A stretch of DNA of 64,000 nucleotides from Pseudomonas syringae. GTDB taxonomy: Bacteria > Pseudomonadota > Gammaproteobacteria > Pseudomonadales > Pseudomonadaceae. Positions 12,359 to 36,667 of the stretch are shown in pieces; within the stretch, counting starts at the first letter, position 1; every line of letters starts with the position of its first letter. The translations under genes were made by a program, and so were the position numbers. The stretch spans positions 434,001-498,000 of the forward strand of contig NZ_CP066265.1 in NCBI RefSeq assembly GCF_023278085.1. Direction: 5' to 3'. The notes below the pieces were generated by a model. It had not been told where the DNA came from. It made no database searches and worked only from the letters and a program-made list of their open reading frames with translations.

Positions 12359-13543
12359 TCACTCTCCCCAGACATCAGCAGTTCCAGCGCGGATTGCGGC
12401 CACCACAAATTTGGCGGAGAGGAGGCAGCCGATTCGATGAAAAGCGTCCCCTTTATTCTTGCCGCCGTCATCGACGACAGCCTTCGCCGCGAAGAAAGCA
12501 GTACGTTTACGAGCATGCCTAGCGGCCTCGTAGATGGAGTAAATCTCCATATCAAACCCCGTTAGCTTTCGCTGCCCGACCCTCAATGTAGAGGTTTTGC
12601 CTTCCTCGGCGATTACGGCGCTGCCGCTGCTGGTGATCGCATCAGATACAATTCTGCAAGTCACTCGCTCGCTGCCTTTCGGCAATTCTGACTTGCCGGG
12701 ATCTAGATTGGCTTGGAGAGTCGACATTGTCGGCCCTGATGCTACCTCTACCAGTTTGTTATGCACGTCCACTTCAAGCTGCACGTCATAGTGCTCGGAT
12801 TTGAAGCCCTCTGTGCTCCATTTGCCTGCGTCATGTTGATGGCAGCTCTGAGTCACTAACAAATCGTATATCTGTGATTCTCCAGCAGCACCGCCGCATA
12901 TTCCACTCATGCATACCAGCCGGGGCTCGAATCTTTCCAGTGCGAAAGCAGCAGCGATTGCAGCACCAACGAGTCCCATGCGGTTCGCTCGAACAATTAC
13001 AGATTTATAATTACCAATCCTGACTTCTCGGCAACTTAGGCCTGAAATTGTAGTTACCGATCCCCAAGTATCAGTGAGCTTTTCGAATGCATCGACTTCT
13101 TTCTCCAACGCACATACAATGACCACATCGAATTTTTTTGCTGGCTGAGCCGCCATCAATTTTATCTTCAGAGCTTCTCGCCACTTACCATGATCATTGA
13201 ACGGAATGACATTGATATCAACTAGATTAAGGTCGTGCACAAAATCTCCATCATCGAGGGCATGTTGAGTCAAAACGATAGCCGGCGTCTTAAAAGATTT
13301 GCTCTGATAGTCTCGTGTGGTTTCAACTAATTGTTCATGATGATCTTCAATGGAATTATCTTTAGCTGAACGCGGTACTAGCAGGTCTAGAAGTATTAGA
13401 TCGAAACGTACATCAGAAACCGCGCGTGCGTAATCTAGCCAGTTCTTCTTTCTTTGAATGACAGCGTCGGGTTTGATTTCAATAACATACGCATGAATCT
13501 GTTCATATTTTTCGTCTTCATCTTCTAGTATCAAGATATTCAT
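12359..13543 (-). CDS. dtcC: DtcC-like effector: receiver domain fused to nucleoside phosphorylase domain
   Basis: The 394-residue protein has an N-terminal receiver domain (acidic ILEDEDE at 5-11, phospho-acceptor Asp53 in LILLDLLVP) and, from about residue 137, a PNP/MTAN-type nucleoside phosphorylase domain: VCALEKEVDAF at 143-153, the MSGICGG phosphate/substrate loop at 212-218, the ribose-binding Glu333 in GFDMEIYSIYEAA and the catalytic Asp358 in KAVVDDG. In Detocs, this effector cleaves ATP to adenine and ribose-5'-triphosphate when phosphorylated after phage infection, draining the cell of ATP. It overlaps the preceding receiver gene by four bases (ATGA) and has GGAG five bases before its ATG. 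Assignment rests on domain order across the three genes; all key residues are present. Confidence 0.88.
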   Translation of the reverse strand: MNILILEDEDEKYEQIHAYVIEIKPDAVIQRKKNWLDYARAVSDVRFDLILLDLLVPRSAKDNSIEDHHEQLVETTRDYQSKSFKTPAIVLTQHALDDGDFVHDLNLVDINVIPFNDHGKWREALKIKLMAAQPAKKFDVVIVCALEKEVDAFEKLTDTWGSVTTISGLSCREVRIGNYKSVIVRANRMGLVGAAIAAAFALERFEPRLVCMSGICGGAAGESQIYDLLVTQSCHQHDAGKWSTEGFKSEHYDVQLEVDVHNKLVEVASGPTMSTLQANLDPGKSELPKGSERVTCRIVSDAITSSGSAVIAEEGKTSTLRVGQRKLTGFDMEIYSIYEAARHARKRTAFFAAKAVVDDGGKNKGDAFHRIGCLLSAKFVVAAIRAGTADVWGE

Positions 13544-14010
13544 AGTTGCTCCAGTATCTCAATGATATCTATTTTCCATTGGTCATCGTCCTCAACGTAT
13601 CGTACGCAACCAGCAACCTCTATTCCAAACTTATCTGATATTTCCTGTTTGGCCATGTTCACAGGTATCGGAAGGCTTTCTATCTCAATGTCAGGATACT
13701 GAGTTAGAATAATACAGTGGGTATGGTTTGAAGTACTCGCTATTTCAAATAATACATCTAGCCCGCCCGAAGACAGAGGGAATGGGGAACCTGCTCCAGC
13801 CTGAGGCTCGTGGCTGTGAATGGACATGTCGATGATTGCCAGGTTAAATATTTGTGATGCTAATAATGCAGTCGCCGACGCAAGTGCCTGACATTCTATT
13901 ATTTCTATTTTTAACTTAAATATGCTGCTTAAATGCGAGCGAATGCCTTCCATTTTGAATTGATCGTCTTCGACGACCAGGCATTTCAGTTTGTCAATGT
14001 TCAAGAGCAT
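13540..14010 (-). CDS. dtcB: DtcB-like stand-alone receiver protein
   Basis: This 156-residue protein is a single receiver domain: LVVEDDQ at 11-17 supplies the acidic pair, Asp61 in LAIIDMSIHS is the likely phospho-acceptor and a CIILTQY strand supplies the conserved Thr; a Lys lies in the following VNMAKQE. It lacks any output domain. In Detocs the middle gene acts as a phosphate sink that drains the kinase and prevents accidental effector activation. It overlaps the kinase gene by 17 bp and the effector gene by four, so the three are translated together. Confidence 0.85.
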   Translation of the reverse strand: MLLNIDKLKCLVVEDDQFKMEGIRSHLSSIFKLKIEIIECQALASATALLASQIFNLAIIDMSIHSHEPQAGAGSPFPLSSGGLDVLFEIASTSNHTHCIILTQYPDIEIESLPIPVNMAKQEISDKFGIEVAGCVRYVEDDDQWKIDIIEILEQL

Positions 14011-16858
14011 ATACGAGCCTCGCTTGTACTTCGTTGCCTAAGACTGCATATTGGTCAAGCTCAAAGTCCGGACGATTGCTTGCAAGAAGAAGCAATTTTG
14101 ATATGCCGCTCTTTTTGTCGTAAAGATTTGCATCTTGAAAACCCGCATTTTTTCTATTTTCTATTTGCAGTGATATTTCAGTCGGGTCGTCCGTTGGTTT
14201 AATGAAAGAGCTAATTTCTATAATTAAGTGTTTTTTAACTCCTGGGATTATTTCAAACTTTCGTTTGAGTGGTCGGTTACGATCTGCGTATTTGGCCGCA
14301 TTGCCAACTACAATAGCAAGGGAGTCGTAAATTAAATGATAGAAATTTCCGACAAGTTCAATGTCCTCCTCCCCAGGATCAGCGTTTCCCGGATCAAAAT
14401 CTGGTATTGTGTCTTTTACTTCTGCAACCGTTGCAGCGAAAAGCAAAGATACTGACGCTTTGGGTGCTACAATCGACGGTCGCTTAAACCAACCCAGCAT
14501 TGTGGAAAGTTTTCTATCAATTGCTATTTCCAACTCTCTTCTGAAAGTTTCTGCAAGTGCATTATTGACTGTTGCTGCAATTGGAACCAACTCTTCGTGC
14601 AAAAACTTTTCATTTTTTAACGGTGTTTGCTGTGCTTTCAGGTAGCGAATCACTGCTACCAAATCTAGCTCTGCAAGACGCCAGCAATAATCGATTATGA
14701 CTGGGCTAACATCAGCAGTTGACGCGCTTTCAACATAGCTATTGCTGATATTTGTGACGGCGGCCGCCAGTACATCTTGTTTGCTGGAGCTATACATTTC
14801 GGGCGTCAGAAGCCCTAATGGCTTAGATTTTGAGTGAACATGCAAACGTTCGGTGATGATTTTTTCAATAGCATTATTATAATTATCTTTCCAAGTGTTC
14901 CACTTGGCTGTGAATTGCGAGTTTTCAAACAAAGGCTTGAATTTTGTAGATTTTTCTACCGAGTTTATAACGCTCGAATATACATGTCCGTGAAAAGTGC
15001 CATGGCGAATTCTGCGGCCTATGTATGAAGCGATACCGAATACTGCATTAGAACAAAACGCATTATAGCTCTGAGTCATCACCATCGAAATTATTGTCTC
15101 GTCACAGGTGACAGATGTGCCTTTTTTCCCCAGTCCCGTTGATGTAAGAGCGCTACCTAGCTCAATCATCATTTCATCTTCAATCCATGAGGAAAAGCGA
15201 GACGGGTCGACATAGATTCGATGGTCATCAATCTCGTTTCGAACTCTATTGATTTGATGATCAATTCGTACAGCGCGAGCTCGCTGAAAATAGTGCTCGT
15301 CCTTGGTAAATTCAGCCATCCATTCGTGTAATGATGCTCGGATTTCTGGAATGTCAGCACGATGTGGTGCGAGCTTAGTAAGCTTCGCTAAGAAATCCTC
15401 AGTAGCAATATCATATATATATTCTGCGATATATGGATGAGAGTCTTCGTAGTATTTCACGAGCTTAACTAGTGAGCCTTCGTGATATTTGAACGCTATG
15501 TCTTCTAAGAGTTTTCTCAAAAGGAAGCTATCAAGTTCGTTTTTACTTCGCTTGCCAAGAAGCAGAAATAAGATTAATTTGACTAACTCGTCCTTGGCGA
15601 GCTTGGCTGCTGTGCGAACCGAATTAATAGGAACCGTACGAGCAAGCTCGCCAGTCAGCCCCATAAGAGTAAGTAGGTCTTCTTTATTAAAACCTATCTG
15701 ACCCTCTGATTCAGTGAGCCAGTAATTGAATAGCGCGGATCTAGTAACATTACCTGACATCTCAAGATTGGCTAAAGTAGAGTGCTTATGTTTCGTAAAC
15801 TGGGAGTCCCCCACGAGTTCATTCAGATCGGTACCGTTACCGATCCAGGCAGATAGCTTTTCTTTCAGCTCGCCAGGTAGCAAGTCTGTCTGTTCACGTG
15901 AAGTGTCGTAGTAATTGTCAGTTAAGATTCGATATTCTCTAACTGTTTCATATTCCAGCCAAGCACTGCTTTGTTTGAAAAAAATATATTCACTTTCGCT
16001 TGCTGTAGCGTCGTAGGTGTTTATTAAATTTTCGAAAAGCCTAGGCTGGCCGAGAGTGTCCGCGATCTCATTTATTGCTGGAAGTTTTTCTATTTTAAGA
16101 AAGTGTCTGTTGAACTTTATCAGAATTATAGCGTCGAGTAGAGAACATTTTAATATCTCTTTTAGATATTCTTCAAAATCTTTTACAGAGGAGGCAAATG
16201 GTTGAATGCTAAGTTTTGATAGAGTCCGGGTGTAACGGTTTATGGTGCCTCGATCCACAATGTTCAGAACAGCTCTTTTACTTGTTAAAATACTCTGGTC
16301 TTGAGTGTAGGTGTGGATTAATGATGATGTCACTACTCCTTTAATTCCAGCCTGTAGTATTAGCTTCTCAATTCGCTCGTCAACGTTTCCCTCTTCAAGG
16401 TTCTCTCGTATAAGAACTATGCGTCTTAACAGTGAGTGGCTCCAGCCATCATGTTTCAGTGTTTCAATTATTTTTTCTACGCAAGCCGAAAAACTTTTGG
16501 TGGAGTATAATAAGTCTATGTTATATAGTGAGTTGGTAAGCTGAAGTAACCTTTTTCTATTTGTACGCGTGCTGTCTTCAATGCTACCTAGTAATTCGTT
16601 GAGATCTAAGTTTCTATACTCTTGAAGAGTGTCAAAAAAAGGTGGGTTTCTTGGAAATAAATCAGATTTTCTTACTGCTTTTGTCAGGGCTGAGCTATTT
16701 AAAATGGCTTCTAAAGCTTTGAGTTGTGCGTTTCCAAAATTCTTGCTGAGTTTGGCTAAGCGTGTAATAGCGTTTCCGTCTTTATCGCTTAGTATCGCCC
16801 TTAGTTGGTTTCTTGTTCTTATATCAAATTGTCTAAGCTTTTCTTCCCTGCGCATCAT
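13994..16858 (-). CDS. dtcA: DtcA-like sensor kinase with C-terminal GHKL ATPase domain
   Basis: From the ATG at 16858 (AAGGA five bases upstream; a TTG at 16879 is also possible) the protein is about 954 residues. Most of it is helical with no recognisable motif and probably senses infection. Near the C-terminus is a histidine-kinase-type ATPase: the N-box VGNAAKYAD (Asn about 853 in this numbering) and a late KKSGISKLLLL loop. I could not place the phosphorylated His with certainty. Base composition is distinctly AT-rich compared with the chromosome. It is the first gene of a three-gene overlapping operon whose order, kinase-receiver-receiver/phosphorylase, is that of Detocs. Confidence 0.82.
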   Translation of the reverse strand: MMRREEKLRQFDIRTRNQLRAILSDKDGNAITRLAKLSKNFGNAQLKALEAILNSSALTKAVRKSDLFPRNPPFFDTLQEYRNLDLNELLGSIEDSTRTNRKRLLQLTNSLYNIDLLYSTKSFSACVEKIIETLKHDGWSHSLLRRIVLIRENLEEGNVDERIEKLILQAGIKGVVTSSLIHTYTQDQSILTSKRAVLNIVDRGTINRYTRTLSKLSIQPFASSVKDFEEYLKEILKCSLLDAIILIKFNRHFLKIEKLPAINEIADTLGQPRLFENLINTYDATASESEYIFFKQSSAWLEYETVREYRILTDNYYDTSREQTDLLPGELKEKLSAWIGNGTDLNELVGDSQFTKHKHSTLANLEMSGNVTRSALFNYWLTESEGQIGFNKEDLLTLMGLTGELARTVPINSVRTAAKLAKDELVKLILFLLLGKRSKNELDSFLLRKLLEDIAFKYHEGSLVKLVKYYEDSHPYIAEYIYDIATEDFLAKLTKLAPHRADIPEIRASLHEWMAEFTKDEHYFQRARAVRIDHQINRVRNEIDDHRIYVDPSRFSSWIEDEMMIELGSALTSTGLGKKGTSVTCDETIISMVMTQSYNAFCSNAVFGIASYIGRRIRHGTFHGHVYSSVINSVEKSTKFKPLFENSQFTAKWNTWKDNYNNAIEKIITERLHVHSKSKPLGLLTPEMYSSSKQDVLAAAVTNISNSYVESASTADVSPVIIDYCWRLAELDLVAVIRYLKAQQTPLKNEKFLHEELVPIAATVNNALAETFRRELEIAIDRKLSTMLGWFKRPSIVAPKASVSLLFAATVAEVKDTIPDFDPGNADPGEEDIELVGNFYHLIYDSLAIVVGNAAKYADRNRPLKRKFEIIPGVKKHLIIEISSFIKPTDDPTEISLQIENRKNAGFQDANLYDKKSGISKLLLLASNRPDFELDQYAVLGNEVQARLVYALEH

Positions 16859-17390
16859 TAATTCCTTGTGGTCTTGCAACCATTGAAAAATGGTAATAAA
16901 CCATTGCTAGTGCGAAATCTATGGGATGGCTCTTAGGTTTTCATGTGGGAATAAGCTCGCACATATTATAAAGCGGTTGATCGGTTAGCTGTGTTTGTTG
17001 CGGGCCGAGTTTGTGACGCGCTAAGGATCGAAGCTGAGTTGCTATCTGTGGAGATCATGGACATCTCCGCCGCTGCTCGCCATCAGGCTCCAGAAGTACC
17101 AATTTTTTTCCAGCACGAATATCCCGATTGCTCGCGGGCTACGGTAGGACGTGATGGTAAGCGCTGAGCCAAGCTGCTACCCCTCCGGTCAATGTTTCTT
17201 TCTTGAACGCCCTGAGCGTGACTGGCAGTATTGCTAAAAAGCTCAGCGAGCTAAGCCTGCAGCACCTGCTTTTGATGAGTACAACGAAGTCCATTTCTCA
17301 TCATCTTAGGATTTAGAGTTGGCCCAGTTTAACGGTATATGTCATGGTGGCACAATGCTTCGGCGCCTATCGAGGTTTTACGCTTTCTAT
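16859..17390. other. Gene-poor stretch with a 61-codon orphan open frame
   Basis: No intact gene is visible in these 530 bp. On the plus strand an open frame from about 16985 to the TGA near 17167 reads LAVFVAGRVCDALRIEAELL and onward for about 61 codons with a protein-like composition but no start codon or ribosome binding site. I do not recognise it. The stretch probably contains decayed genes of the outer element. Confidence 0.4.
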
Positions 17391-17986
17391 GAGGCGCACC
17401 ACACGCTTTTTTAGATCAACCTAATGCCGGCGCAAGGATGTTATCTCTGACGAGCGCATGCCGGTCTCCAGTGCGATTCGAACAATCCAGCCTAGCGCTG
17501 GATTACTGTGCGCGTTTACGACAGCCAGCAACCGACGTTCCTCTTCCGCAGATAGGCGCCGATCTCTGCCTTCGCCTGGGCTCGGCTTTCGGATGTTAAG
17601 CACCGGGTTGAAACTTAGCTCCAACCCCCCTTCCTGACTTGCCACGACTGGTGATAGGGGCTAGGCGCGTATTTCGGTAATTGGCGATGATCTCTGCAGA
17701 GAGCGCTGCCATTGGATACTTGCCCAGATGGCTTATCAACTGCTGAGCCTTGGTTGCCTAAGCGCCCTGAGTAGCCGGCTTCTTTGTCGGGCTGACCTCA
17801 GCCAGATAGCGTTTCAAGGCCATTGCCAGAGTTATTCGCTAGGAGCCACTTCTCTGGATGTACACACCCCTCACCATTTCGTCTTCTGTGCGGCGAGCCC
17901 AGTCCTCGGCGTCGCGCTTGGTGCGAAAGGCTTTGGCATTGGCCGGCTAGCCGGTTTTCCGCACCAAGGCTTTCCAGGTGCCAGCG
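17391..17986 (-). pseudogene. Wrecked tyrosine integrase of the outer element
   Basis: This stretch is a diverged copy of the intact integrase gene at 35475-36539. A 74-codon fragment (17421-17645) reads LSFNPVLNIRKPSPGEGRDR and continues to TGMRSSEITSLRRH, nearly identical to the intact protein and including the first catalytic Arg. The copy lacks the start codon and first residues, has an internal deletion of about 70 bp near 17650, in-frame stops in the N-terminal part, and ends before the His-Arg-His-Tyr half of the active site. It cannot make a working recombinase, so the outer element is no longer able to excise by itself. Confidence 0.9.
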
Positions 17987-18016
17987 AAGGACTGGTCCAG
18001 CTGTTTTTCTCGCAGA

Positions 18017-18096
18017 CAGCAAAAAGCCGCGCAATGCGCGGCTTTGAGTATGGTGGGCCCACACGGACTCGAACCGTGGACCAAAGGATTATGAGT
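18017..18096 (-). repeat. 80-bp perfect copy of tRNA-Ile2 3' end plus terminator: internal attachment site
   Basis: Bases 18017-18096 are identical to 36634-36713, covering the tRNA terminator hairpin and the tRNA from its CCA end through the anticodon loop. Identity stops inside the tRNA at ATGAGT; the real gene continues CCTCTGC, this copy continues TGCCTAGAAAC. It marks the junction between the two tandem elements and would serve as attL of the inner element, with the intact tRNA as attR. Confidence 0.9.
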
Positions 18097-18518: not shown

Positions 18519-20912
18519 ATGACCCGCGTTGTTAGAGATCGAAAGGGGAAGACGAGCTTGGCTCAAAAGGACGATTTACACTTTGACGTGAGCACTGGCC
18601 TCAAGCGGGTATTAGGTCGGGAACTCATCACGGATGACGAGGTTGCAATTTTTGAGCTCGTCAAAAACTCATTCGACGCTGGCGCTGACAGCGTCCAGCT
18701 CCATTTCAGCGACGACAGCATCATCATCGCGGACAACGGCTCGGGTATGTCCTATGAAGATCTTACAGGCAAGTGGCTGTTCGTCGCCTATTCCGCTAAA
18801 CGCAGTGATCGTCCGGAAGACGACTTCCGTAACGTAGCCGCTGAGCGCCGGCACTATGCCGGCAGCAAGGGTATAGGGCGTTTCTCGTCTGATCGGTTAG
18901 GAGAAGAGGTTGTCATACAAAGCCGACCCAAAGGAAAATCTAAAGTTGTCCATCGTCTGACGGTCGACTGGGGACTGTTCGAAAAGGATGCTAAGGAGCA
19001 TTTCGAGAAAATCCCAGTCCGTTATTTAGAGCAAAGCTCATTCCAATTGCCAAGTGAGCTGAGCAAATTCGAGGCTACTGTCAGACATGGCACGGCAGTC
19101 ACTATCAATCGGCTGAGGCGACCCTGGTCCCGGTCTCGAATTCTTAATCTAAAAGCGTCGTTAGCGAAGCTGATAAACCCTTTCGGCGAAGAAACTGACG
19201 GATTTGGCATTCACATAACCGCCCCGTCTGAGGATGAGGAGGACAAGAGGCTTATTGCCGCTCATTCCAAGGAAGGCGACGAGCCTCTTCCCAAAGATCT
19301 GGTCAACGGCCAGATCGGTAATTTCATTTTTGCAACCTTGCAAGACAAGACTACTTTTATTCGGGTTAGCATTGAGGGCGATGAGCTGCATACCGCGCTC
19401 ACTGACCGTGGCGAGGTTATCTACAGGATTGTGGAGCCAAATCCGTATCCTCATTTATCAACTGCAGATTTTAGATGTGAGATCTACTATCTCAACCAGT
19501 CAGCTAAAATAACCTTCGCTCGACGTGTTGGCCTTCCTTCAGTTCAGTTCGGATCCGTGTTTCTGTTTAGGAATAGTTTCCGCGTCTACCCAATCGGTGA
19601 AGATGGTGATGACTGGTTTGGGTTTGCCAGGCGCAAGCAGCAGGGCTATGCGCGCTTTTTGGGCACGCGCGAAATCATCGGCCGGGTAGACGTTTCTGGT
19701 GCTGATGAAGATTTTCAAGAAGCCTCCAGCCGCAACCAGGGATTGATTGAGACGCCTGCGGTAGAGCAGTTGCAAAAGGCCGTGATGGAGCATTGCTTAA
19801 AGCGGCTGGAGAAGTATGTAGTTCCAGTATCGTGGGTTGATAAGCCCGATGCGAATACCGATGATCTTTCTAGATTGATGACTGACCCAGGTAGAGCTCG
19901 CGTAACAGCTGCTGTAGCTAACCTCGTGGACAACGATAAGGTTCAGCTTATTGAGTACAGCAAGCGACTCGTAGATTTGATTAACGAGCGCTCCAGCGAT
20001 TTTGAGACATCTTTAGTTGGTCTGCGTGCAATTGCTGAAAAAACCGGCGACCCGGACCTTCTTGATCGACTTGATTCGGCCGAGCGTCGTTTTGATGATT
20101 TAAAGAAGTCTGAGAACGACGCCCGACGGGTAGCTGATACTGCTTTGGCTGCGGCTGAAGCCGCGAACCGCCGCGCTGACACGGCAGAGGCTGAGGTAGA
20201 AACGGAGCGGCGTCGTGCACATTTTCTTGAGTCTTTCGTAAACGTTGACTCGGCTACGATCCTTAACCTGCATCATCAGGTAACGATCTATGCTGTGGAC
20301 ATTGCTCAGCAGATAGAGAATTTTCTAACCGAAACTGCCGATCAGACAATGGTGTCGCGTGAAACTGTTCTCAAAACGCTAGAGCAGATGGCTTACCTTA
20401 ATAAAAAGGTCATGTCGGTAACGAAGTTTGCAGCAAGAGCAAAATTCAAACTCGACTCCGAAAAAATCGAGACCGATCTCGCTGCGTTTTTTTATGATTA
20501 CATCGACCAAATCGCCCGTACAACCGGCAGCGTAAGGCTGCAAATAGTTGTTGAGAATCTTCACCCCGGTATGACGCGAAGGTTTAACCCGATAGACGTT
20601 TCGGTAATAGTGGATAATTTAATAAGTAATGCAAGAAGAGTCAGGGCTCCCTCTATTAAATTTGTTCTGACACAACAGGATAAAAGTGGCCTAACGATCC
20701 ATGTTAGTGATAATGGACGTGGTCTGTCCGCTGGTACGAATCGCTCACGTATATTTGAAATGGGATACACAACCACTCAAGGGTCAGGTATTGGCTTGTA
20801 TCATGTACGGCAGGCACTTGGCGAAATGGGTGGAAGTATTGAACTCGACGATCAATTGGAAAAGGGTTTGGGCTTCGTCATCAAAATCGCCGCGAAAGGA
20901 AGAAAATCGTGA
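18519..20912 (+). CDS. Protein with two GHKL ATPase domains (Hsp90/MutL-like plus histidine-kinase-like)
   Basis: The 797-residue protein starts with an Hsp90/MutL-type ATPase: N-box FELVKNSFDAGA (45-56), DNGSGM (72-77) and GSKGIGRFSSDRLGE (115-129). A middle segment has the SFRVYPIGEDGDDWFGFARR block (353-372) typical of this ATPase family. Residues about 510-570 form an Arg/Ala/Glu-rich coiled coil. A kinase-like module follows: ILNLHHQVTIYA with His585/His586 as possible phospho-acceptors, then a second ATPase with N-box IVDNLISNARR (697-707), DNGRGL (731-736) and GSGIGL (755-760). Its last bases overlap the GTG start of a receiver gene. This suggests a sensor kinase with an extra ATP-driven clamp domain. 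The ribosome binding site at the ATG is weak. Confidence 0.88.
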   Translation: MTRVVRDRKGKTSLAQKDDLHFDVSTGLKRVLGRELITDDEVAIFELVKNSFDAGADSVQLHFSDDSIIIADNGSGMSYEDLTGKWLFVAYSAKRSDRPEDDFRNVAAERRHYAGSKGIGRFSSDRLGEEVVIQSRPKGKSKVVHRLTVDWGLFEKDAKEHFEKIPVRYLEQSSFQLPSELSKFEATVRHGTAVTINRLRRPWSRSRILNLKASLAKLINPFGEETDGFGIHITAPSEDEEDKRLIAAHSKEGDEPLPKDLVNGQIGNFIFATLQDKTTFIRVSIEGDELHTALTDRGEVIYRIVEPNPYPHLSTADFRCEIYYLNQSAKITFARRVGLPSVQFGSVFLFRNSFRVYPIGEDGDDWFGFARRKQQGYARFLGTREIIGRVDVSGADEDFQEASSRNQGLIETPAVEQLQKAVMEHCLKRLEKYVVPVSWVDKPDANTDDLSRLMTDPGRARVTAAVANLVDNDKVQLIEYSKRLVDLINERSSDFETSLVGLRAIAEKTGDPDLLDRLDSAERRFDDLKKSENDARRVADTALAAAEAANRRADTAEAEVETERRRAHFLESFVNVDSATILNLHHQVTIYAVDIAQQIENFLTETADQTMVSRETVLKTLEQMAYLNKKVMSVTKFAARAKFKLDSEKIETDLAAFFYDYIDQIARTTGSVRLQIVVENLHPGMTRRFNPIDVSVIVDNLISNARRVRAPSIKFVLTQQDKSGLTIHVSDNGRGLSAGTNRSRIFEMGYTTTQGSGIGLYHVRQALGEMGGSIELDDQLEKGLGFVIKIAAKGRKS

Positions 20913-21832
20913 GACTGGATTTTAACGTGCTGTGGGTGGACGACCAGCCAGATGGCGTGGCCGCACAAATCAGGAGTATCAGGTCGAGAATGGCCGCAGA
21001 GGGTTTTGAATTCAGACCCCGGCAGTGCACGACGATTACCCAGATGGAACAAGTCATTTCCGATGACGTATTTACAGATGAGGTGGACCTAATTCTTGTG
21101 GACTGGGATCTTGGTGGCGGCGTAGTTGGTGAGGACGCAATCGATCGCATTCGGCAAATTGTTCAGTATAAAGACGTGGTGTTTTACTCCGGCCAGGCTA
21201 CTGTCGTAGAGCTGCGTGAGAAAGCTTTCCACAAGGAGCTTGAAGGCGTCTACTGTGCCAGTCGGGCTGAACTTGTTGAGGAGGTAGTTGGGGTCTTCGA
21301 GTCACTTATTAAGAAGGTTCTCGACCTTGATCATACTCGGGGCATCGTCATGGGAGCTACGAGTGACATAGATCATATGGTCAACACTTGTTTGACTCTA
21401 GCTCACGGCAAGCTCGATGACGCAGGCAAGGCTAGATTTATAGAGGAGGCGATGAAGCGGGTAGTGGAGCAGGTTGAGAATATTACAAGGCAGGGAGAGA
21501 AGCTGAAGGGGACACCTAGCGTCGAGGCCCTATTCAAGACTCACATGCTTTTTACGTCTGATCATCGTCTTCGCATGCTGGCAAATATTCTGGGGATGGC
21601 CGAATTCACGCCCTTTGCAGGCTCCGTGGCTACGGTTAAAGCGTATCGCGAGGGCGTTGTCCATGAGCGTAATACCCTCGGACATGCGGTTTTAGTCCCT
21701 CAAGGAAAGCCAGACACTGTCATCGACGACACTGGTAAAGCTGTTGATATTGCGCAGATGCGAGAGCTTCGCAAACTAATTCTAGGTCTGCGCACAGATT
21801 TCCGCGTCCTTCTGGACGCCATGCAGTCTTGA
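20909..21832 (+). CDS. Receiver-domain protein with HEPN-like RNase motif
   Basis: The start is GTG at 20909 (AAGGAAG just upstream), overlapping the kinase stop by four bases. Residues 1-130 form a receiver domain with Asp11/Asp12 (LWVDDQ), phospho-acceptor Asp65 (LILVDWD) and a VVFYSG strand. The remaining 170 residues are helical and contain VHERNTLGHAVL, in which R254-N255-x3-H259 fits the R-polar-x3-5-H motif of HEPN ribonucleases. I infer a phosphorylation-controlled RNase, by analogy with receiver-effector defence proteins; no family name can be given. Its 3' end overlaps the methyltransferase gene tail-to-tail by 51 bp. Confidence 0.78.
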   Translation: MRLDFNVLWVDDQPDGVAAQIRSIRSRMAAEGFEFRPRQCTTITQMEQVISDDVFTDEVDLILVDWDLGGGVVGEDAIDRIRQIVQYKDVVFYSGQATVVELREKAFHKELEGVYCASRAELVEEVVGVFESLIKKVLDLDHTRGIVMGATSDIDHMVNTCLTLAHGKLDDAGKARFIEEAMKRVVEQVENITRQGEKLKGTPSVEALFKTHMLFTSDHRLRMLANILGMAEFTPFAGSVATVKAYREGVVHERNTLGHAVLVPQGKPDTVIDDTGKAVDIAQMRELRKLILGLRTDFRVLLDAMQS

Positions 21833-23089
21833 GATCACCTCTGTTTTACTGAGTCCTACAGCAGCGGTCTCTCTTGTCAGCAGATCTACCAACATCTCCC
21901 CAATTGCGCGTGCAGCAAGTGGTGGTACTGCGTTAGCCACTTGCGTGAAACGAGGTACTTCCTGCTTGCGACGATGCCCACCGGAGGTGTACTTACCTTG
22001 GAACGAGTACCAATCCGGAAAGCTTTGCAGTCTCGCGTTCTCTCTAACGGTTAGTGTCCGTGGCTCAGAATAGTGAAGGAGGTCGTCAGGCATGCTTGTA
22101 ATTGTCGGTGATGGGCGATCAGGGTCTAGAACCCGAAGAGCAAGCTTTTTGAGGCCAAAACGAGCGCGCATTTCTGCACCGATGCTTACGTTGAGGCGAC
22201 CTTCTGCATGGCTAAGCGCGATGATTTCCTTAAAGCGGGATACGATGTTTCCGTTATGACGAGCTAAGCGTAGGTTGTCAGGAGATTCGCACCCTGCATT
22301 CATCAGCTTTTGGTAGTGAGTGAGCGGACCGGCATAACGAGTTTCCTCGAAACCCTTACTCTCTGTAGATGGCCGGGTGCCGCAGTGCGCCGTCTCAAAA
22401 TCGGAAATCGCCGAACCGGATGATACCGGTGCTTTCAGGCGCAGAGAGCGCAGGAATGAGGGAAGGCTGTTTTGTAGGTGTATGAAAGGGTCAGGTACAT
22501 CTAGTTCTGAGCGAAAAGCGAGGACAAAGTAGCGTGTTCTTCTCTGCGGCACACCGAAGCACGAAAGGTCAATAAGCTGCTCATGCACCGTATAGGCATT
22601 AGACAATCGAGCTTTGAGTGCTTGCGAAAAATTCTTGATCTCCCCTTCTGCATTGAAATCAAGTGTGAATCCTCGCACGTTCTCTATCAAGACCGCCCTG
22701 GGTTTTATGATATCGACCAGGTTTAAGTAAGAGTCAAATAGTTGATTACGTGGATCATCATGCTGACGCCTACCTGCGCTAGAAAAACCTTGGCACGGAG
22801 GCCCGCCGACAAGGATATCGATCTCACCAGAAATCTCTTCAAGCTCTTCTCGGTAATTGGTGAGAAGCTCGACGATGCCTAAGGGCTCTTCAGGGAGCCA
22901 CTGCGGCCATGCGTATCGAAAGGGTGATCCTTCCGCTAGCAGGTTTGTCTGTAGTGTGGCAAAAGCGAACCTATCACGCTCTATAGCAAAACGGCCAGTC
23001 AAGCCCGCTTGCATCAACCCGAGAGACAGACCTCCGCAACCCGCGAACGCGTCAATAAAGGTCAGTGGCTTGGTAGGTGATCGTGGCAT
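21782..23089 (-). CDS. DNA (cytosine-5-)-methyltransferase
   Basis: The 435-residue protein has the ordered motifs of m5C methyltransferases: motif I FIDAFAGCGGLSLG (S-adenosylmethionine binding), motif IV GGPPCQGFSSAGR with the catalytic Cys, motif VI ENVRGF, motif VIII QRRTRYFVLAF, and the C-terminal QVANAVPPLAARAIGE (motif X). It should methylate cytosine in a specific DNA sequence, which cannot be read from the protein. No recognisable restriction endonuclease or Vsr gene is adjacent. It converges with the receiver-HEPN gene, overlapping by 51 bp. Confidence 0.92.
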   Translation of the reverse strand: MPRSPTKPLTFIDAFAGCGGLSLGLMQAGLTGRFAIERDRFAFATLQTNLLAEGSPFRYAWPQWLPEEPLGIVELLTNYREELEEISGEIDILVGGPPCQGFSSAGRRQHDDPRNQLFDSYLNLVDIIKPRAVLIENVRGFTLDFNAEGEIKNFSQALKARLSNAYTVHEQLIDLSCFGVPQRRTRYFVLAFRSELDVPDPFIHLQNSLPSFLRSLRLKAPVSSGSAISDFETAHCGTRPSTESKGFEETRYAGPLTHYQKLMNAGCESPDNLRLARHNGNIVSRFKEIIALSHAEGRLNVSIGAEMRARFGLKKLALRVLDPDRPSPTITSMPDDLLHYSEPRTLTVRENARLQSFPDWYSFQGKYTSGGHRRKQEVPRFTQVANAVPPLAARAIGEMLVDLLTRETAAVGLSKTEVISRLHGVQKDAEICAQT

Positions 23090-23656: not shown

Positions 23657-24400
23657 TTATCCCCCTAAAGATCTCCAGGCATAATTGGCGCTCAAAGCGA
23701 TGGCCACGGCAGAGCTATGCAGAATTACTGGGAGTGATAGTCCCCCTGATTGAATGCGAGCGACGGCAAAAATCAATCCGAGAGATAGCATTAGCGCATG
23801 CGTTGGCCAGAAACTATAACTTTTGAAGTGGGCATACATGAAAAAAACAGCTGACATGATCACTGCAGATATTGCTATGTAAATATTATTCTTAAAAGGT
23901 AAGATCCCAAGGATGAAATGCCTGAATATAATCTCCTCTACGATAGGCGGCAGTACTAACAGCGAGAGAATCATCAGTAAAAACTGCGGCTCACTTTTGC
24001 CTAATCCAAGCCCTTGCATCGTCAGTTCTCTCCCGAGACCGAGTGAGATGGAAATACCAATACTCACAGCGTAAGCGATTGCCACCGATGTTAGTCCGAT
24101 GACTAGATGACGGCTCTTGATGGTGCCTAGTAAGCTTAGGTGTGGGTTGAATCGCTTCTGCAGAAACAGCGTCATGACGAGTAAAGCTGCAGGTGGTCCA
24201 TAGAGAATAGGGATGTCATAGGCAATCAGAGTGGTGTATGGAGTATGTTTCATGAGCAGCTTAACGAGCTGCCGGTAAATCACGTAGACGGCAGGGCCTA
24301 TGAGCAGCCACGGCATCAAGGCCAAACCGTGATTCCCCCAAAAGAGGTGCCACATTTTTGGTCTGTGTGTTTCAGTGTCGTTAGTAGCTTGGTCTGCCAT
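23657..24400 (-). CDS. CPBP-family intramembrane metalloprotease
   Basis: From the ATG at 24400 (a GTG at 24409 is also possible) the protein is about 247 residues with several membrane segments. It has the CPBP (Abi) signatures: VEEIIFRHFILG, the EExxxR motif with two catalytic Glu, and FMYAHF supplying the FxxxH motif. CPBP proteases process prenylated or other membrane proteins; in bacteria many lie with bacteriocin or phage-resistance genes. Two 18-bp palindromes stand 27-80 bp upstream of the start, the same sites that precede the mobilization relaxase gene, so it is probably regulated with conjugation genes. Confidence 0.85.
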   Translation of the reverse strand: MADQATNDTETHRPKMWHLFWGNHGLALMPWLLIGPAVYVIYRQLVKLLMKHTPYTTLIAYDIPILYGPPAALLVMTLFLQKRFNPHLSLLGTIKSRHLVIGLTSVAIAYAVSIGISISLGLGRELTMQGLGLGKSEPQFLLMILSLLVLPPIVEEIIFRHFILGILPFKNNIYIAISAVIMSAVFFMYAHFKSYSFWPTHALMLSLGLIFAVARIQSGGLSLPVILHSSAVAIALSANYAWRSLGG

Positions 24401-24426
24401 TGTCTTCACTTCTCGTACTGTTCAGA

Positions 24427-24444
24427 TTTTCGCGCCCGCGAAAA
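24427..24444. promoter_or_regulatory. 18-bp palindrome (copy 1)
   Basis: TTTTCGCGCCCGCGAAAA. It lies 27 bp upstream of the CPBP protease ATG, close enough to overlap its promoter. Part of a family of five sites in this element. Confidence 0.75.
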
Positions 24445-24462
24445 TGGCTCGTGTCACCGGTT

Positions 24463-24480
24463 TTTTCGCGGGCGCGAAAA
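24463..24480. promoter_or_regulatory. 18-bp palindrome (copy 2)
   Basis: TTTTCGCGGGCGCGAAAA, 36 bp from copy 1 (start to start). The near-perfect two-fold symmetry and the pairing suggest a dimeric repressor binding twice. Confidence 0.75.
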
Positions 24481-24619
24481 TCTATCGTTGCTGGTGATAC
24501 CCAGCGCGACAAGTCACCCTGGCTCTCACCAGCTCGTTTGGAAGCACAGTGTTGAGTGTCCAAACGAGCTCCAAGCACTATTTGCTCACCGCGCAGATGA
24601 GGTTTCGAACCGTCCATGA

Positions 24620-24686: not shown

Positions 24687-25793
24687 TCAATTTTTAGCTC
24701 CCGTCAGCGGGTTGTAGCCTTGGGCAGCGCATCTGGCTCTCGCCATGATGCTGGCCGTACATTCCCTCTGCTTCGCTGCTGCCGCAGCTTCCGATTGGCG
24801 TTTTGCCGCCGCTAGTCGGCGCTCGGAGTCTTGCTCTACTCGGCGAGTAGCCTCGGCGGCTGAGCTGGCCTGGCGATCAGTGTCACGTTGGCGTTGAATA
24901 GACAGGCGTTGTAGTCTCTGTTGCTCACGTTCTGCCTGCTGCTCTGCCTGTCGAGCGTCTCGCTCTACCTGACGTGCTTGATTCTGAGCGTCTAGCTTTG
25001 CCTGTTGCGCCTGCCTTTCTGCGTCTCTCTCCGCTTTACGGATCGCGCTGCTGAGCGTGTCAATCGATGCTGCAGGTGTAGGTATCGGCTGCTTCCGCTC
25101 AGATGGCTGTTCTCTATCGTAATCATCGGAAGTTTGCTCTGCCACTGCTGCTGGCCCGAGCGCCCCTGCCTTATCGCCGTTCAATTGCACATCTAGCCGA
25201 TGAACCAGGTTCTCAGTCTGAGCCTGTAGCTTGAATCCCTCTTGCAGCACTGGTAGGGCATCAAGTACGCCATCTGACAAGCGCTGATAGTCGAAGCGAG
25301 AGGGCCGCTTGACCTCAAGCGCGCTTAGAAATAATTTTCCCTCGACGCTCAGCGGCACCTGTTGTTTCGTAAGATTTTTGAACGGTGATGTCTCGATAAG
25401 CTGCTGTGCCTGATCGTATTTTTCCTGTTGTGCCGCTGCTTTCTGAAGGACCTGTTCCTGGCTTGGAGCTTTGATACGTGACAGCTGCGCCTGGAGGTTA
25501 GACGTTTGTTGGGTTGCAACTTCTCGCAGCCACTCAGGCTGGTCCGCTATCAAAACTTGCAGGCGAGAAAGTGCTGCTTCAGTGTGTTGCACCGATTGGG
25601 CGCTTAGCGCATTGATTGCTTCAAGGCGTTGAACGGCCTCGTCAGCTTTCATGGCGGGGTATCGGTAGGCATACACGACTGCAGCTAGAAGCAGGGCCAA
25701 TGCGAGGAGGGTGGCTGGAGAAGTGGACCCTGGCCAATACCAGCAACCCTCTTTTTCACGCATCACGGGCATTCGGATTTCAGTAGTCATCAT
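24687..25793 (-). CDS. Membrane-anchored coiled-coil protein of the mobilization operon
   Basis: The 368-residue protein has a short N-terminus, one membrane segment (about residues 27-46, ATLLALALLLAAVVYAY), a helical periplasmic or cytoplasmic middle, and a strongly charged Ala/Arg/Gln/Glu coiled coil at about 240-345 ending in a short Cys-containing tail. I do not recognise a family. Its start overlaps the stop of the coupling-protein gene by four bases (ATGA), so the two are co-translated and the protein probably helps the coupling ATPase. Confidence 0.7.
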   Translation of the reverse strand: MMTTEIRMPVMREKEGCWYWPGSTSPATLLALALLLAAVVYAYRYPAMKADEAVQRLEAINALSAQSVQHTEAALSRLQVLIADQPEWLREVATQQTSNLQAQLSRIKAPSQEQVLQKAAAQQEKYDQAQQLIETSPFKNLTKQQVPLSVEGKLFLSALEVKRPSRFDYQRLSDGVLDALPVLQEGFKLQAQTENLVHRLDVQLNGDKAGALGPAAVAEQTSDDYDREQPSERKQPIPTPAASIDTLSSAIRKAERDAERQAQQAKLDAQNQARQVERDARQAEQQAEREQQRLQRLSIQRQRDTDRQASSAAEATRRVEQDSERRLAAAKRQSEAAAAAKQRECTASIMARARCAAQGYNPLTGAKN

Positions 25794-28438
25794 GCAGTAC
25801 CCCCGTGTTGTTTCGGGTACAACCGGATTACGTCACGACGTTGAATACGTCCACGATTGATGATTGCTATCGCAGTACCAGGTATGGCGAGCAACGTATC
25901 AATCTCATCAGGCTGGATAAGGGGCGACAGCTCTAGCTGTAGCGAGGGACGCTGCGGTGCTTGAGTTGAGTCATCCGGCACTACCATTCCATTCAGCCAG
26001 TTCATGGCCTTGGGAGTCCACTGACGGTGCCAGAGGCCGATAGCGTAAGACAGACGTGGCGCGCCAAAGCGACTCTGTCTGTTCAGCGTTGTCGATTGCA
26101 TTGCTTGATCCGTACCGGAGTTAGCGTATAGGCCAAGGTCGCTTGCCGCGTCTGGTAGTCCTTGGAAGCTTTGCGTTGAGGCCTTCCACACATGGCCACT
26201 GCGCTTGGAAACGTAATTGTTTGAATCGTCTGTACGGGGTGCTAAAGCAATGATACTGGCCAGATTACCGAGCATCTGAACCGCACCATCACGCTCCAGG
26301 CGTTTGTATAAACCGTCGACGTTTTGCGTTGCAAACATTAGGTACAGGCCCAGGCTGCGTGCTACAGGAACAGTCTCTAAGTCTGCTTTGGTCAATAGGT
26401 TCTGAACTTCGTCAGCGGCAAGTAGCACGGGCCGGTGACCTTCCAGACTTTTCCAATTGTCGCCGCGTTTTTTCACCGCGTCGTAGACTCGTCGCATGCA
26501 TAGGGCCGAGATCGCAACCCCGCCAATACCATATTCCGACTCCGGTAATAGAAGTCCGATTTTCTGGCCGGTCATTACACCCTCAACCCTGAACTGGGTA
26601 TTAGTAGTATTGACCCATGGCCCGAGCTTTTCTTGAAGCAGGATGTTCCCCAACCAAGTCCGCAGCATGTTACTGATGCAACCTGCAGTCTTCTCTGGGA
26701 AATCCGGATACTCCAACAACCAATAGTGAGCGGCTGCGAGCAGGCGCCCGCTATGGTCAATCTCATTTGAGATGGAATCTAGCCAGTCCGCTCGCTCCTG
26801 ATGGCTTGCCAGGCAAAATTGCTGGATTTGTGTCAGCGTATAGGGAAGATCAGGATGGGCTTCCACTAGGATTGCCGCCATACGCAGCATCAGGCGGGCA
26901 GAGTCTCGCCAGAAGGTATCTCCTTTCCCGTCGTCGCAAACGTCGGGCAACACATCAGCCAGAGCATCTGGCGTCATCTCATAGATAGGATTGAATGGGC
27001 CGTGGTCTGGGCTGATGAGCGTATAACCGTCGATACCATGGAACTCAAGCGGCAGTGCACCCTTGCCATCGAGAACCAGAAGACCTCCTAGATCGCCATC
27101 GATCCACTGTTTGGTGAGCGGACGAATGACCCCTGAAGTTTTGCCCGTGCCGCTAGCTCCTAGCACACCGACATGAGTAGCCAGATCTGTAACCGACAGG
27201 CCAAACGGTATACCCGCTTCAGTAGGCGCTAGGGGGTCACGTCGTTGCGCTAACAAGCCAGTACTGGTTCCGAGTTGGATGAAAGGAGAGCTGTCCGTTT
27301 TGGCGTTTTTAATTTGCTCATTCCGTGCTTCCTCCAAGTGCTGGAAATACGCGCGCCCGGCTTTGTCGATTAACAGTTCGGTACCGCTTTCACGTACGGC
27401 TTGATCAAGCAGCATTGCGCGAACCGTAAGAGGGGATTTGGCCGTGAAGGTAAGATAGATTGCGAAACCCCACATACCTAAAACGTATAGCCAATTAATC
27501 AGCTGAGCATCCAGGCGAATGAATGTGTCGAGATGTTCACGATAGGACGCCGAGAGTCCCACAAAAATCAGGGCTGGAATGATGACTATTTTGATGACGA
27601 GGAGGAATACAGACGGGTCCGTTTCCTTCTGTGCCGGTTGTGCTTTTTCCTGATCACGTGGAATCCAGAAGGCAAAACGTTTCCACACCAAAAGGGCGAA
27701 ATAATCCAGGACCGCAAGCATGGGCGATGAGATTGCGAGAGCCGGAGTTAGCATTACCAAGCCAACCATGAACAGCACAGCCTTGGTGGTCATCCACTCA
27801 GAACGAACAGCTGAAAACTCTAGGTCGGTGGCTAGTACTTGTCCCGTGACAGACTGGCCGTTGGAGTCTGTCACCAAAAGCCGCGCGCGGTCTGCCAAAT
27901 CGGGTGGAGTTCCTGGCTCCAAATCACGAATAACGCACCGGGAAATGATGCTTTTCACTGAGTCGATTTCATCCTGACGCACGGGTGTTTTTGGCAGGAG
28001 TACTTGAGCGATCAGAGGGCCAAATAGTGTTGCAGAACAACACAGCAAAACGCTAAGCCATACAGTGATAGTAAACGCCAGTGGGACGAGAGTGTCATTT
28101 GTCGTCGTTCCTGCTTTGTTTACTAAAATATAGGTAAACAATAATCCGATGAGCATCAGCGCAGGAATAACCAACCACGTTCGTTTTGCCCAAATACGTT
28201 GCGCGAGGAAAACACCAATTTGAGACAGCGAAAGCCTCTGAGCCATCCTTTCGATATGATCATTTGATAATCCATCATGCTCAGTATCCGTCCCGCTGAT
28301 CCAGTAAACTTGTGGATCTAGCACACCCTCATATTTGCGCATGATGACAGTACGCATTCGTTCCTGCTCGTGATGTAGAAGCCAGTACTTTGTCTTTGAC
28401 ACAGGGTCATCAAAAAAACGATTTTTTGAAATGCTCAT
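25790..28438 (-). CDS. Type IV coupling protein-like ATPase (TraD/TraG/VirD4 type)
   Basis: The 882-residue protein has five or six membrane segments in its first 335 residues (about 88-106, 118-148, 221-251, 278-296, 313-332), then an AAA+ motor with Walker A GASGTGKTS (427-435), a VLDGKG strand, and Walker B LLAADEVQNLL followed by the sensor-type FATQNVDGL. This is the layout of conjugative coupling proteins that feed relaxase-bound DNA into a type IV secretion channel. No channel genes are present in this element, so it should use one supplied by another plasmid or element. Confidence 0.85.
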   Translation of the reverse strand: MSISKNRFFDDPVSKTKYWLLHHEQERMRTVIMRKYEGVLDPQVYWISGTDTEHDGLSNDHIERMAQRLSLSQIGVFLAQRIWAKRTWLVIPALMLIGLLFTYILVNKAGTTTNDTLVPLAFTITVWLSVLLCCSATLFGPLIAQVLLPKTPVRQDEIDSVKSIISRCVIRDLEPGTPPDLADRARLLVTDSNGQSVTGQVLATDLEFSAVRSEWMTTKAVLFMVGLVMLTPALAISSPMLAVLDYFALLVWKRFAFWIPRDQEKAQPAQKETDPSVFLLVIKIVIIPALIFVGLSASYREHLDTFIRLDAQLINWLYVLGMWGFAIYLTFTAKSPLTVRAMLLDQAVRESGTELLIDKAGRAYFQHLEEARNEQIKNAKTDSSPFIQLGTSTGLLAQRRDPLAPTEAGIPFGLSVTDLATHVGVLGASGTGKTSGVIRPLTKQWIDGDLGGLLVLDGKGALPLEFHGIDGYTLISPDHGPFNPIYEMTPDALADVLPDVCDDGKGDTFWRDSARLMLRMAAILVEAHPDLPYTLTQIQQFCLASHQERADWLDSISNEIDHSGRLLAAAHYWLLEYPDFPEKTAGCISNMLRTWLGNILLQEKLGPWVNTTNTQFRVEGVMTGQKIGLLLPESEYGIGGVAISALCMRRVYDAVKKRGDNWKSLEGHRPVLLAADEVQNLLTKADLETVPVARSLGLYLMFATQNVDGLYKRLERDGAVQMLGNLASIIALAPRTDDSNNYVSKRSGHVWKASTQSFQGLPDAASDLGLYANSGTDQAMQSTTLNRQSRFGAPRLSYAIGLWHRQWTPKAMNWLNGMVVPDDSTQAPQRPSLQLELSPLIQPDEIDTLLAIPGTAIAIINRGRIQRRDVIRLYPKQHGGTA

Positions 28439-28924: not shown

Positions 28925-29096
28925 TTCGCTTAATTACGCTAAGTTTGCTTTTAGGGTTTTAATTATAACTATTATATGTTTGATGTGCGCGCGGACTGCT
29001 TTATCCTTCCAGTATTGGAAGGCGCGCTTAGTTGTTTCTTCGTTCCTCAGAAACAGCGCGCCCTGCCGGGGGCAGAAGCGAAAATCAAAAGCGGAT

Positions 29097-29114
29097 TTTT
29101 CGCGGGCGCGAAAA
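29097..29114. promoter_or_regulatory. 18-bp palindrome (copy 4)
   Basis: TTTTCGCGGGCGCGAAAA, identical to copy 2. It lies in the 256-bp divergent region between the accessory-protein gene and the relaxase gene, where the transfer origin and both promoters are expected. Confidence 0.75.
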
Positions 29115-29136
29115 TGAAGCGTAGTGCTAAGACTTA

Positions 29137-29154
29137 TTTTCGCGGGCGCGAAAA
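29137..29154. promoter_or_regulatory. 18-bp palindrome (copy 5)
   Basis: TTTTCGCGGGCGCGAAAA, 40 bp from copy 4 and 27 bp before the relaxase ATG, the same 27-bp distance that copy 1 has to the CPBP gene. This equal placement supports an operator role. Confidence 0.75.
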
Positions 29155-29180
29155 TTTAGACACGTCGAGATAATCCGCAT

Positions 29181-36539: not shown

Positions 36540-36639
36540 GCTATTTCTGCTCCAAAAACGTACCGTTGTTTTGGCACTGTACTGATTTTGTACCTGTGGA
36601 CCATAGGATTGGTCCAGCTGTTTTTGTCGCGGGCAGCAA

Positions 36640-36662
36640 AAAGCCGCGCAATGCGCGGCTTT
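36640..36662 (-). terminator. Terminator of the tRNA-Ile2 gene
   Basis: On the reverse strand AAAGCCGCGC, loop ATT, GCGCGGCTTT is followed by a T run. This 10-bp stem immediately follows the tRNA CCA end. It is duplicated perfectly at 18.02-18.05 kb. Confidence 0.9.
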
Positions 36663-36667
36663 GAGTA

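Follow-up and report, generated by a model that had tools for sequence, protein, structure and literature searches.

Within the window, by which we mean the whole 64,000-nucleotide stretch of Pseudomonas syringae DNA that was analysed, three intact genes lie at 18519-23089. Open reading frames and Pfam matches identify them as encoding a double-GHKL kinase, a receiver protein and an m5C methyltransferase. The open reading frame list agrees with the first-pass annotation on the position of each frame, on the four-base overlap between the kinase and receiver genes, and on the methyltransferase gene converging with that pair. The features are as follows.

17988..18096, no strand: copy of the tRNA-Met 3' end resembling an attachment site, immediately upstream of the trio (96% identity over 109 bp)
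18519..20912, plus strand: double-GHKL sensor kinase, 797 aa (open reading frame; HATPase_c_3 and HATPase_c)
18612..19220, plus strand: N-terminal paraMORC/MutL-like GHKL ATPase of the kinase, residues 32-234 (NCBIfam BbrUII/HgiDII model; HATPase_c_3 at 41-171)
20274..20276, plus strand: His586, proposed phospho-acceptor in an L-H-H-Q box (second His conserved)
20592..20888, plus strand: C-terminal histidine-kinase catalytic ATPase, residues 692-790 (HATPase_c, 1.6e-20; N700, N704, G755, G757 and G759 invariant)
20909..20912, plus strand: stop/start overlap of the kinase and receiver genes, 4 bp (frame coordinates)
20909..21832, plus strand: receiver protein with a probable HEPN half, 307 aa, GTG start (open reading frame)
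20909..21319, plus strand: receiver domain, residues 1-137, with Asp65 at 21101-21103 (profile and model evidence; Asp65 invariant)
21326..21826, plus strand: predicted HEPN-type domain, residues 140-306, with R254 at 21668-21670 and H259 at 21683-21685 (motif, profile, model)
21782..21832, no strand: overlap of the converging receiver and methyltransferase gene 3' ends, 51 bp (frame coordinates)
21782..23089, minus strand: m5C DNA methyltransferase, 435 aa (open reading frame; PF00145, DNA_methylase, 4.3e-50)

The kinase has two ATPase modules, matched in Pfam by HATPase_c_3 at residues 41-171 (1.9e-22) and by HATPase_c at residues 692-790 (1.6e-20). Among 14 aligned kinases of two families (10 of window type; L041, L064, L024 and L026 excluded), the residues E46/N50, D72-G74-G76 and G115-K117-G118-G120 are invariant in the N-terminal ATPase, as are N700/N704, G733/G735 and G755/G757/G759 in the C-terminal one. 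We take these to be N, G1 and G2 boxes, and both their invariance and the two Pfam matches agree with the two full sets of such boxes described previously. In the L-H-H-Q box, the second His is present in 10/10 aligned kinases of window type, and the first is Met in L040. Residues 32-234 also match the NCBIfam model of the BbrUII/HgiDII restriction enzymes (E 3.1e-24; 85.5 of 550 bits, far under the cut-off), covering positions 13-199 of the 659 in this family model. The partner of HgiDII is an m5C methyltransferase. In the trio kinase, a helical linker and histidine-kinase modules stand where the remainder of such a restriction enzyme would be. A Pfam scan of the trio and of two flanking genes found no restriction endonuclease domain, which is consistent with the earlier description of a methyltransferase without an endonuclease partner, and an ordinary type II restriction-modification (R-M) pair was rejected since no such domain is present in the partner genes.

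The identification of the second protein as a receiver is supported by profile evidence, by an invariant Asp65 and by the AlphaFold2 model; it has the fold and the acidic residues, including the phospho-acceptor Asp, of a receiver (REC) domain. The search for relatives of this protein gave 1101 at E<=1e-3. In our alignment of 46 sequences, the window copy and 3 loci stand beside 42 of 154 proteins (from the best 120 of the 1101 relatives plus a further search), and a further receiver alignment combined 27 of those 46 sequences with 3 loci. Asp65, R254 and H259, the three residues to which the first-pass annotation had pointed, are invariant in 46/46 aligned proteins, window included, and D12 is also among the family-invariant residues. 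In Pfam, the window copy gives just a marginal receiver match (Response_reg_2, E 0.049). The usual beta5 lysine appears, as judged by eye, to be replaced by an invariant arginine, R119, and signalling by this receiver may therefore be unusual. No DNA-binding domain scored above the Pfam cut-off in the receiver proteins scanned; in that of L040 there is a sub-threshold match to an HTH-type DUF inside the receiver part (16.8 of 33.4 bits).

The C-terminal half of the receiver protein is very probably a HEPN domain, judging from its motif, its profile and its model. R254-x4-H259 is a conserved instance of the HEPN motif R-x(4-6)-H, and both residues are among five that are invariant over 12 loci. 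HHalign comparison with PF18735-type HEPN proteins (15 proteins, 10 of them over the Pfam cut-off and 5 under) gave scores of 28.8 and 36.2 (P 8e-4 and 6e-5), beating 100/100 permuted controls with maxima of 18.1 and 15.8; the corresponding probabilities were moderate, 24-65%, and against a smaller set of 6 HEPN sequences only, the probability was 0.9%. Pfam HEPN_RiboL-PSP matches 2/46 aligned sequences (P0152/P0153, 4e-5), under its curated cut-off. The AlphaFold2 model of the 307-aa protein (mean pLDDT 82.8, pTM 0.64) shows a receiver and, after it, a helical domain; R254 sits at the end of a helix and H259 directly beyond, in a region where pLDDT is about 65-75. When the whole model was compared with solved structures, the matches listed were to receiver domains. 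A fold other than HEPN would have spoken against the first-pass call; so far, the domain is modelled as helical and its profile matches HEPN. The call is supported by the helical model, the place of R254 and the profile match, but not by Pfam, which finds no HEPN match in the window copy even at E<=10.

The three genes travel together through distantly related bacteria. Kinase, receiver-HEPN protein and methyltransferase are clustered in 12/12 loci (the window and 11 others), with receiver identity down to 22%. This recurrence indicates that the trio is no chance grouping, and it answers the question of co-occurrence raised by the first-pass annotation, as the methyltransferase belongs to every cluster. 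The kinase gene adjoins the receiver gene in all 12 (in L041 it is a fragment at a contig end), and the two overlap by 4 bp in 10/12, by 1 bp in L017 and by 11 bp in L042. The place of the methyltransferase gene varies: it is convergent in 9 loci, co-directional in 2, and separated by three genes in 1. The 3' ends of the receiver and methyltransferase genes overlap in some convergent loci and leave a short gap in L014 and L041. The distances of the three proteins correlate with each other (r 0.96, 0.92 and 0.94 over 11 loci, L041 being omitted as most of its kinase is missing; Mantel 0, 2 and 0 of 2000), and without G434 r is 0.96-0.98 over 10 loci. In G434 the methyltransferase, at just 34% identity, is found on the far side of a DndH-like module, so its link with the kinase is less direct. 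Vsr is a repair enzyme linked to 5-methylcytosine, and its gene adjoins the set in L015 (domain scan) and, by eye, in L064. In six genomes (G583, G619, G719, G734, G971 and G711) the match is limited to 38-109 receiver-part positions within longer frames, and these were not counted as loci. The family is rare, being present in 2 of 298 genomes of the genus, the strain's own included. No relative was found among the plasmids or phages searched, among viral contigs (where a pattern matched 64 stretches, no relative among them) or, at the DNA level, in E. coli genomes. Chance adjacency of the methyltransferase was rejected as an explanation: the genome has two PF00145 matches in 5.6 Mb, that of the trio and one in a 215-aa frame, so that about 1% would be expected per 20-kb neighbourhood.

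The first-pass annotation knew of no named system with this set. This holds only in part. A two-component-like system of HEF_HK, Response_reg_2 and C5 methyltransferase near R-M genes was described by Bellieny-Rabelo et al. in 2021 (PMC8011034), but its receiver proteins end differently. This sister set consists of a HATPase_c_3+HEF_HK+HATPase_c kinase, Response_reg_2, a C5 methyltransferase and, in some genera, Vsr; it was reported from 628 strains, its output being left unassigned, and the portion of the text available proposes neither an effector nor a defence role (PMC8011034). Both families share the HATPase_c_3 and HATPase_c kinase, the adjoining receiver gene, the C5 methyltransferase (12/12 loci here; in the genus, the cluster includes a GHKL gene and a methyltransferase at 6/6 Response_reg_2 loci) and sometimes Vsr, and their receiver domains are related (HHalign P 1e-4). 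They differ in kinase length (771-833 aa in the trio family versus 981-1023 aa in the sister family), in the His box (L-H-H-Q, or M-H-Q in L040, versus H-E-F or H-E-L in 4/6 sister kinases, by eye) and in receiver protein length (301-324 aa versus 553-592 aa in 5 intact frames of 6), and the C-terminal part, HEPN-type in the trio family, is unrelated in the sister family. The sister receiver alignment holds five sequences, without L026, where the Response_reg_2 frame is split in two. PF19192 matches 25/46 aligned receiver proteins at E<=0.1 (best 4.2e-5), but the window copy (14.2), L015 (17.3) and P0154 (15.9) score under the gathering threshold of 27 bits, and HEF_HK (PF19191) has no match at E<=0.1 in the window kinase or in those of L017 and L015. 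Plain membership in the PF19191/PF19192 system was therefore rejected, and the trio is a new, very probably HEPN-armed variant beside this sister family.

An alternative, put forward for the sister family in PMC8011034, is that the trio is a two-component-like control of R-M with no killing effector, in which the kinase would respond to a nucleotide or to stress and the receiver would tune the expression or activity of the methyltransferase or of nearby R-M genes. Sister sets do occur near R-M genes (PMC8011034), and type-I-like R-M genes lie upstream of the trio in L011 (open reading frame list, by eye). However, the scanned receiver proteins have no DNA-binding domain above cut-off, no constant endonuclease neighbour was seen by eye in the open reading frame lists (few neighbours were domain-scanned), and the RxxxxH pair, needless for a mere regulator, is kept down to about 20% identity. 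We consider this explanation quite unlikely.

The surroundings of the trio suggest defence. The neighbouring segment has a Detocs-like operon at 12359-16879, at a distance of 1.6 kb, and the trio sits on an integrated mobile element with a relaxase, a coupling protein and an integrase; over 109 bp, the copy at 17988-18096 shares 96% identity with 36605-36713, which lies at tRNA-Met. The defence-island setting proposed earlier is supported by these neighbours, and from this context the trio may have an anti-phage role. Detocs consists of a kinase, a receiver-only protein and a receiver-effector, and is not known to include a DNA methyltransferase; the target of its kinase is a receiver joined to an enzyme that does harm. 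Its PNP-type effectors belong to PF01048 (PMC10952713). The trio would share this mode of signalling, with a predicted HEPN domain instead of the PNP-type effector and a methyltransferase in addition; as the open reading frame list shows no receiver-only gene within the trio, it does not have the composition of Detocs. HEPN domains of the Ymh family are also known fused to paraMORC ATPases in R-M neighbourhoods (PMC3710099). The trio likewise has a paraMORC-like ATPase and a predicted HEPN domain in an R-M context, whereas its HEPN is carried by a separate receiver, which would answer to a kinase. A kinase/receiver-HEPN/methyltransferase defence set was not found among the literature matches listed, subscription papers lying mostly outside the scope of the search; in a DefensePredictor figure legend, HATPase and REC appear among systems that are predicted but not validated (PMC13092281).

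The same mobile element would also suit an addiction module, a role that R-M systems can play (PMC8011034). The receiver-HEPN protein would then be a toxin silenced both by methylation and by the kinase (phosphorylated meaning off); a cell that lost the cassette would be killed, and selfish persistence would come first with phage defence secondary. Against this, the open reading frame list has no separate antitoxin gene within the trio, and an on-switch and an off-switch are equally compatible with the invariance of Asp65 and the coupling of the kinase gene. We regard an addiction module as unlikely.

The explanation that we favour, at roughly an even chance, is that the trio is an R-M-like defence cassette in which a phosphorelay-controlled RNase takes the place of the DNA-cutting enzyme. 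The methyltransferase, whose enzyme class is clear from PF00145, would mark the host's own DNA. The paraMORC-like N-terminal ATPase of the kinase is expected to close as a DNA clamp, and the kinase would watch for invading DNA, most simply DNA that lacks the mark. Once triggered, the C-terminal kinase module would autophosphorylate at His586, from where the phosphate would move to Asp65 in the receiver, as conservation and gene coupling suggest. This would free or dimerise the HEPN half, which, from what its family does, would cut RNA through R254/H259 and stop growth or phage production. We prefer this explanation because the residues that it requires (D12, D65, R254 and H259) are family-invariant, because clustering persists through changes in gene order with correlated protein distances, and because profile and model evidence supports both receiver and HEPN; the lack of a DNA-binding domain above cut-off, the Detocs-like neighbour on a mobile element and the 5-methylcytosine-linked Vsr point the same way. 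It is weakened by a HEPN call that rests on profile, motif and model topology with moderate HHalign probabilities, and R119, the G434 methyltransferase link, the HTH-type match in L040 and the rarity of the family also count against it. The methyltransferase could, moreover, be retained for another reason. Another explanation would be that the kinase monitors the methyltransferase or host methylation, and that the RNase is triggered when a phage blocks methylation rather than by unmodified phage DNA as such. The presence of the methyltransferase in every locus fits this, as does its requirement for a transcript of its own in the 9 convergent loci, which follows from the orientation. However, contact between kinase and methyltransferase lacks support, and sequence cannot separate such a guard from the R-M-like cassette; we consider it improbable.

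The trio may represent a new class of R-M, in which self and non-self are read through methylation, the signal passes by His-Asp phosphotransfer to an RNase, and the cell meets foreign DNA by destroying RNA. Kinase and receiver would form a modular scaffold, with exchangeable effectors (HEPN, or a different part of 400 residues in the Response_reg_2 branch) and DNA-marking partners that can likewise be exchanged (a DndH-like module in G434 among them). We put this forward tentatively, as somewhat less than evenly likely. If true, a two-component phosphorelay, mainly known for gene regulation, would join methylation-based self recognition to an RNA-directed suicide response, bridging the gap that separates restriction-modification from abortive infection. 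The sister set reported from 628 strains (PMC8011034) would then have a suggested function as well.

Open reading frame calls confirmed the three-gene set in the window as it had been described in the first-pass annotation:

18519-20912, plus strand: protein 1, double-GHKL kinase (797 aa; open reading frame and Pfam)
20909-21832, plus strand: protein 2, receiver-HEPN protein (307 aa; GTG start within the 3' end of gene 1)
21782-23089, minus strand: protein 3, m5C methyltransferase (435 aa; open reading frame and family match)

Pfam places two ATPase domains in protein 1, HATPase_c_3 (1.9e-22), of the MutL/Hsp90 type, at the N terminus and HATPase_c (1.6e-20), of the histidine-kinase type, at the C terminus; the region between them gave a weak alanine zipper score. 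Its residues 32 to 234 match the BbrUII/HgiDII restriction-enzyme model with a score far below the model cutoff; GHKL ATPases encoded at restriction-modification (R-M) loci are known to have this paraMORC-type relationship (PMC2292703). In protein 2, residue 119, at the apparent position of the receiver's usual conserved post-beta5 lysine, is an arginine that is invariant in 46 of 46 aligned sequences. Besides protein 3, the genome has one match to the m5C methyltransferase family, in a 215-aa frame.

A mobile element is integrated at tRNA-Met, spanning about 18.0 to 36.7 kb, and the trio is located just within its left end. The element also carries the following genes:

25790-28438: TraG/TraD-like coupling protein
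29181-30656: MobA/MobL relaxase
35475-36701: integrase

Three copies of the tRNA-Met 3' end (12032-12105, 17988-18096, and 36605-36744) bound two tandem integrated segments. The second segment (12.0 to 18.0 kb), bounded by another tRNA-end copy that is 84% identical, lies to the left and retains its integrase only as a truncated relic (17382-18084). A CAAX prenyl endopeptidase (Rce1-like) gene (23657-24409, minus strand) lies between the methyltransferase and the mobilization genes, and the latter are flanked by four copies of a 31-nt repeat (24422-24488 and 29092-29162) whose palindrome-like core reads TTTTCGCGGGCGCGAAAA in three copies and TTTTCGCGCCCGCGAAAA in one. These repeats are perhaps binding sites or terminators. 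The left segment also contains an operon that resembles the defense two-component system Detocs, in that a receiver and a PNP-domain protein stand beside a large third protein:

12359-16879, minus strand: Detocs-like operon, three products

The 156-aa receiver matches PADLOC PDC-M60B (2e-19) and Response_reg (4.4e-5), and the 394-aa product has a PNP domain (PNP_UDP_1, 1.1e-12). The 961-aa product has no family match, and no model indicates a kinase. Two signaling-type systems are thus found side by side in one island.

Relatives of protein 2 were sought first in GTDB-based genome contigs, where six loci were found (titled Aeromonas, Paucimonas [MAG], Eremiobacteraeota MAG, Achromobacter, Pseudoxanthomonas [MAG], and Acidobacteriia MAG); the gene order kinase, receiver, methyltransferase and the convergent orientation are shared by all six. 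Overlapping genome sets gave matches in 2 of 298 genomes for the genus (the window's own included), 4 of 369 for the class, 7 of 398 for the phylum, and 2 of 230 and 2 of 239 around genomes G870 and G819, respectively. These searches added five loci, in G226 (L017), G434 (L040/L043), G819 (L041), G870 (L042), and G1116 (L064), giving 12 with the window; six partial receiver-only matches from the class and phylum searches are outside this count. The receiver protein of G226, a genome labeled as belonging to the window's genus, is 100% identical to P0121, a protein named from Pseudomonas palmensis.

The first-pass annotation had raised the question of whether the methyltransferase accompanies the other two genes elsewhere, and it lies within the cluster at all 12 loci. 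The order is less constant: the methyltransferase is convergent with the kinase and receiver genes at nine (the window, L010 to L015, L041, and L064), upstream and codirectional at L017 and L042, and upstream with three intervening genes in G434. Kinase and receiver genes overlap at every locus, by 4 bp in ten, 1 bp in L017, and 11 bp in L042. Identity matrices computed over the 11 loci whose genes are full length correlated for kinase and receiver (r = 0.96; Mantel, 0 of 2000), kinase and methyltransferase (r = 0.92; 2 of 2000), and receiver and methyltransferase (r = 0.94; 0 of 2000), rising to 0.96 to 0.98 when G434 was left out. The gene set is real and well conserved, and the fact that its order varies yet its membership is constant is the pattern of a functional unit.

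In G434 (L040:8035-15920 and L043:1850-7266), the kinase/receiver-HEPN pair is preceded by a DndH-like ATPase (PADLOC E = 1.7e-79), a 515-aa protein, an AAA-like protein (an apparent ATPase, judged by eye), and a different m5C methyltransferase. The DndH-like and AAA-like genes are two of the three that intervene. Here the same alarm is possibly joined to another DNA modification defense.

A defense role of the trio is plausible. The gene set, the domain content, the conserved phospho-acceptor (Asp65) and RNase-type residues (R254 and H259), and coinheritance are all present. By analogy with its MORC and MutL relatives, the N-terminal ATPase of the kinase may act as a DNA clamp. Methylation by protein 3 would be the self mark, the kinase would transfer phosphate to Asp65, and release of the HEPN RNase would arrest growth, where phosphorylation could mean RNase on or off. 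At 9 of 12 loci the methyltransferase gene runs on the other strand and so must be transcribed separately, and this, together with the overlapping kinase and RNase genes, fits such a system. Two observations speak against a purely regulatory role: the RxxxxH pair is invariant in the receiver protein, and no DNA-binding domain scored above the cutoff in the receiver proteins scanned.

A sister family is described in PMC8011034, according to which HATPase_c_3+HEF_HK+HATPase_c kinases show 91.6% linkage to Response_reg_2 proteins over 644 regions and C5 methyltransferases and Vsr occur near these genes; its authors suggest that the set controls R-M as a two-component system of the cytoplasm. Response_reg_2 occurs in 6 of 298 genomes of the window's genus, with a GHKL gene and a methyltransferase at all six loci. 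Its receiver domain is related to that of the trio (P = 1e-4), whereas its 400-residue C-terminal part, represented by five sequences, matched neither the C-terminal half of the trio's receiver protein (P = 0.76) nor HEPN (P = 0.46). By eye, its four aligned kinases have H-E-F or H-E-L where trio-type kinases have L-H-H-Q. Related receiver domains with different C-terminal parts and kinase histidine motifs indicate one scaffold with two outputs; judged from these sequences, the trio is a branch separate from the Response_reg_2 family, with a recognizable effector. The Response_reg_2 proteins of L024, L025, L027, L028, and L029 are 553 to 592 aa long, 400-residue C-terminal region included, and in the three scanned this end gave no Pfam family above the cutoff. 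It is a candidate effector.

The earlier statement that no named system has this set holds for the HEPN-armed branch, as no paper describing it or its mechanism was found in the literature searched, but not for the sister kind (PMC8011034). The kind of system has been known in outline since 2021; as far as the literature searched goes, the HEPN-armed branch and its proposed mechanism are new.
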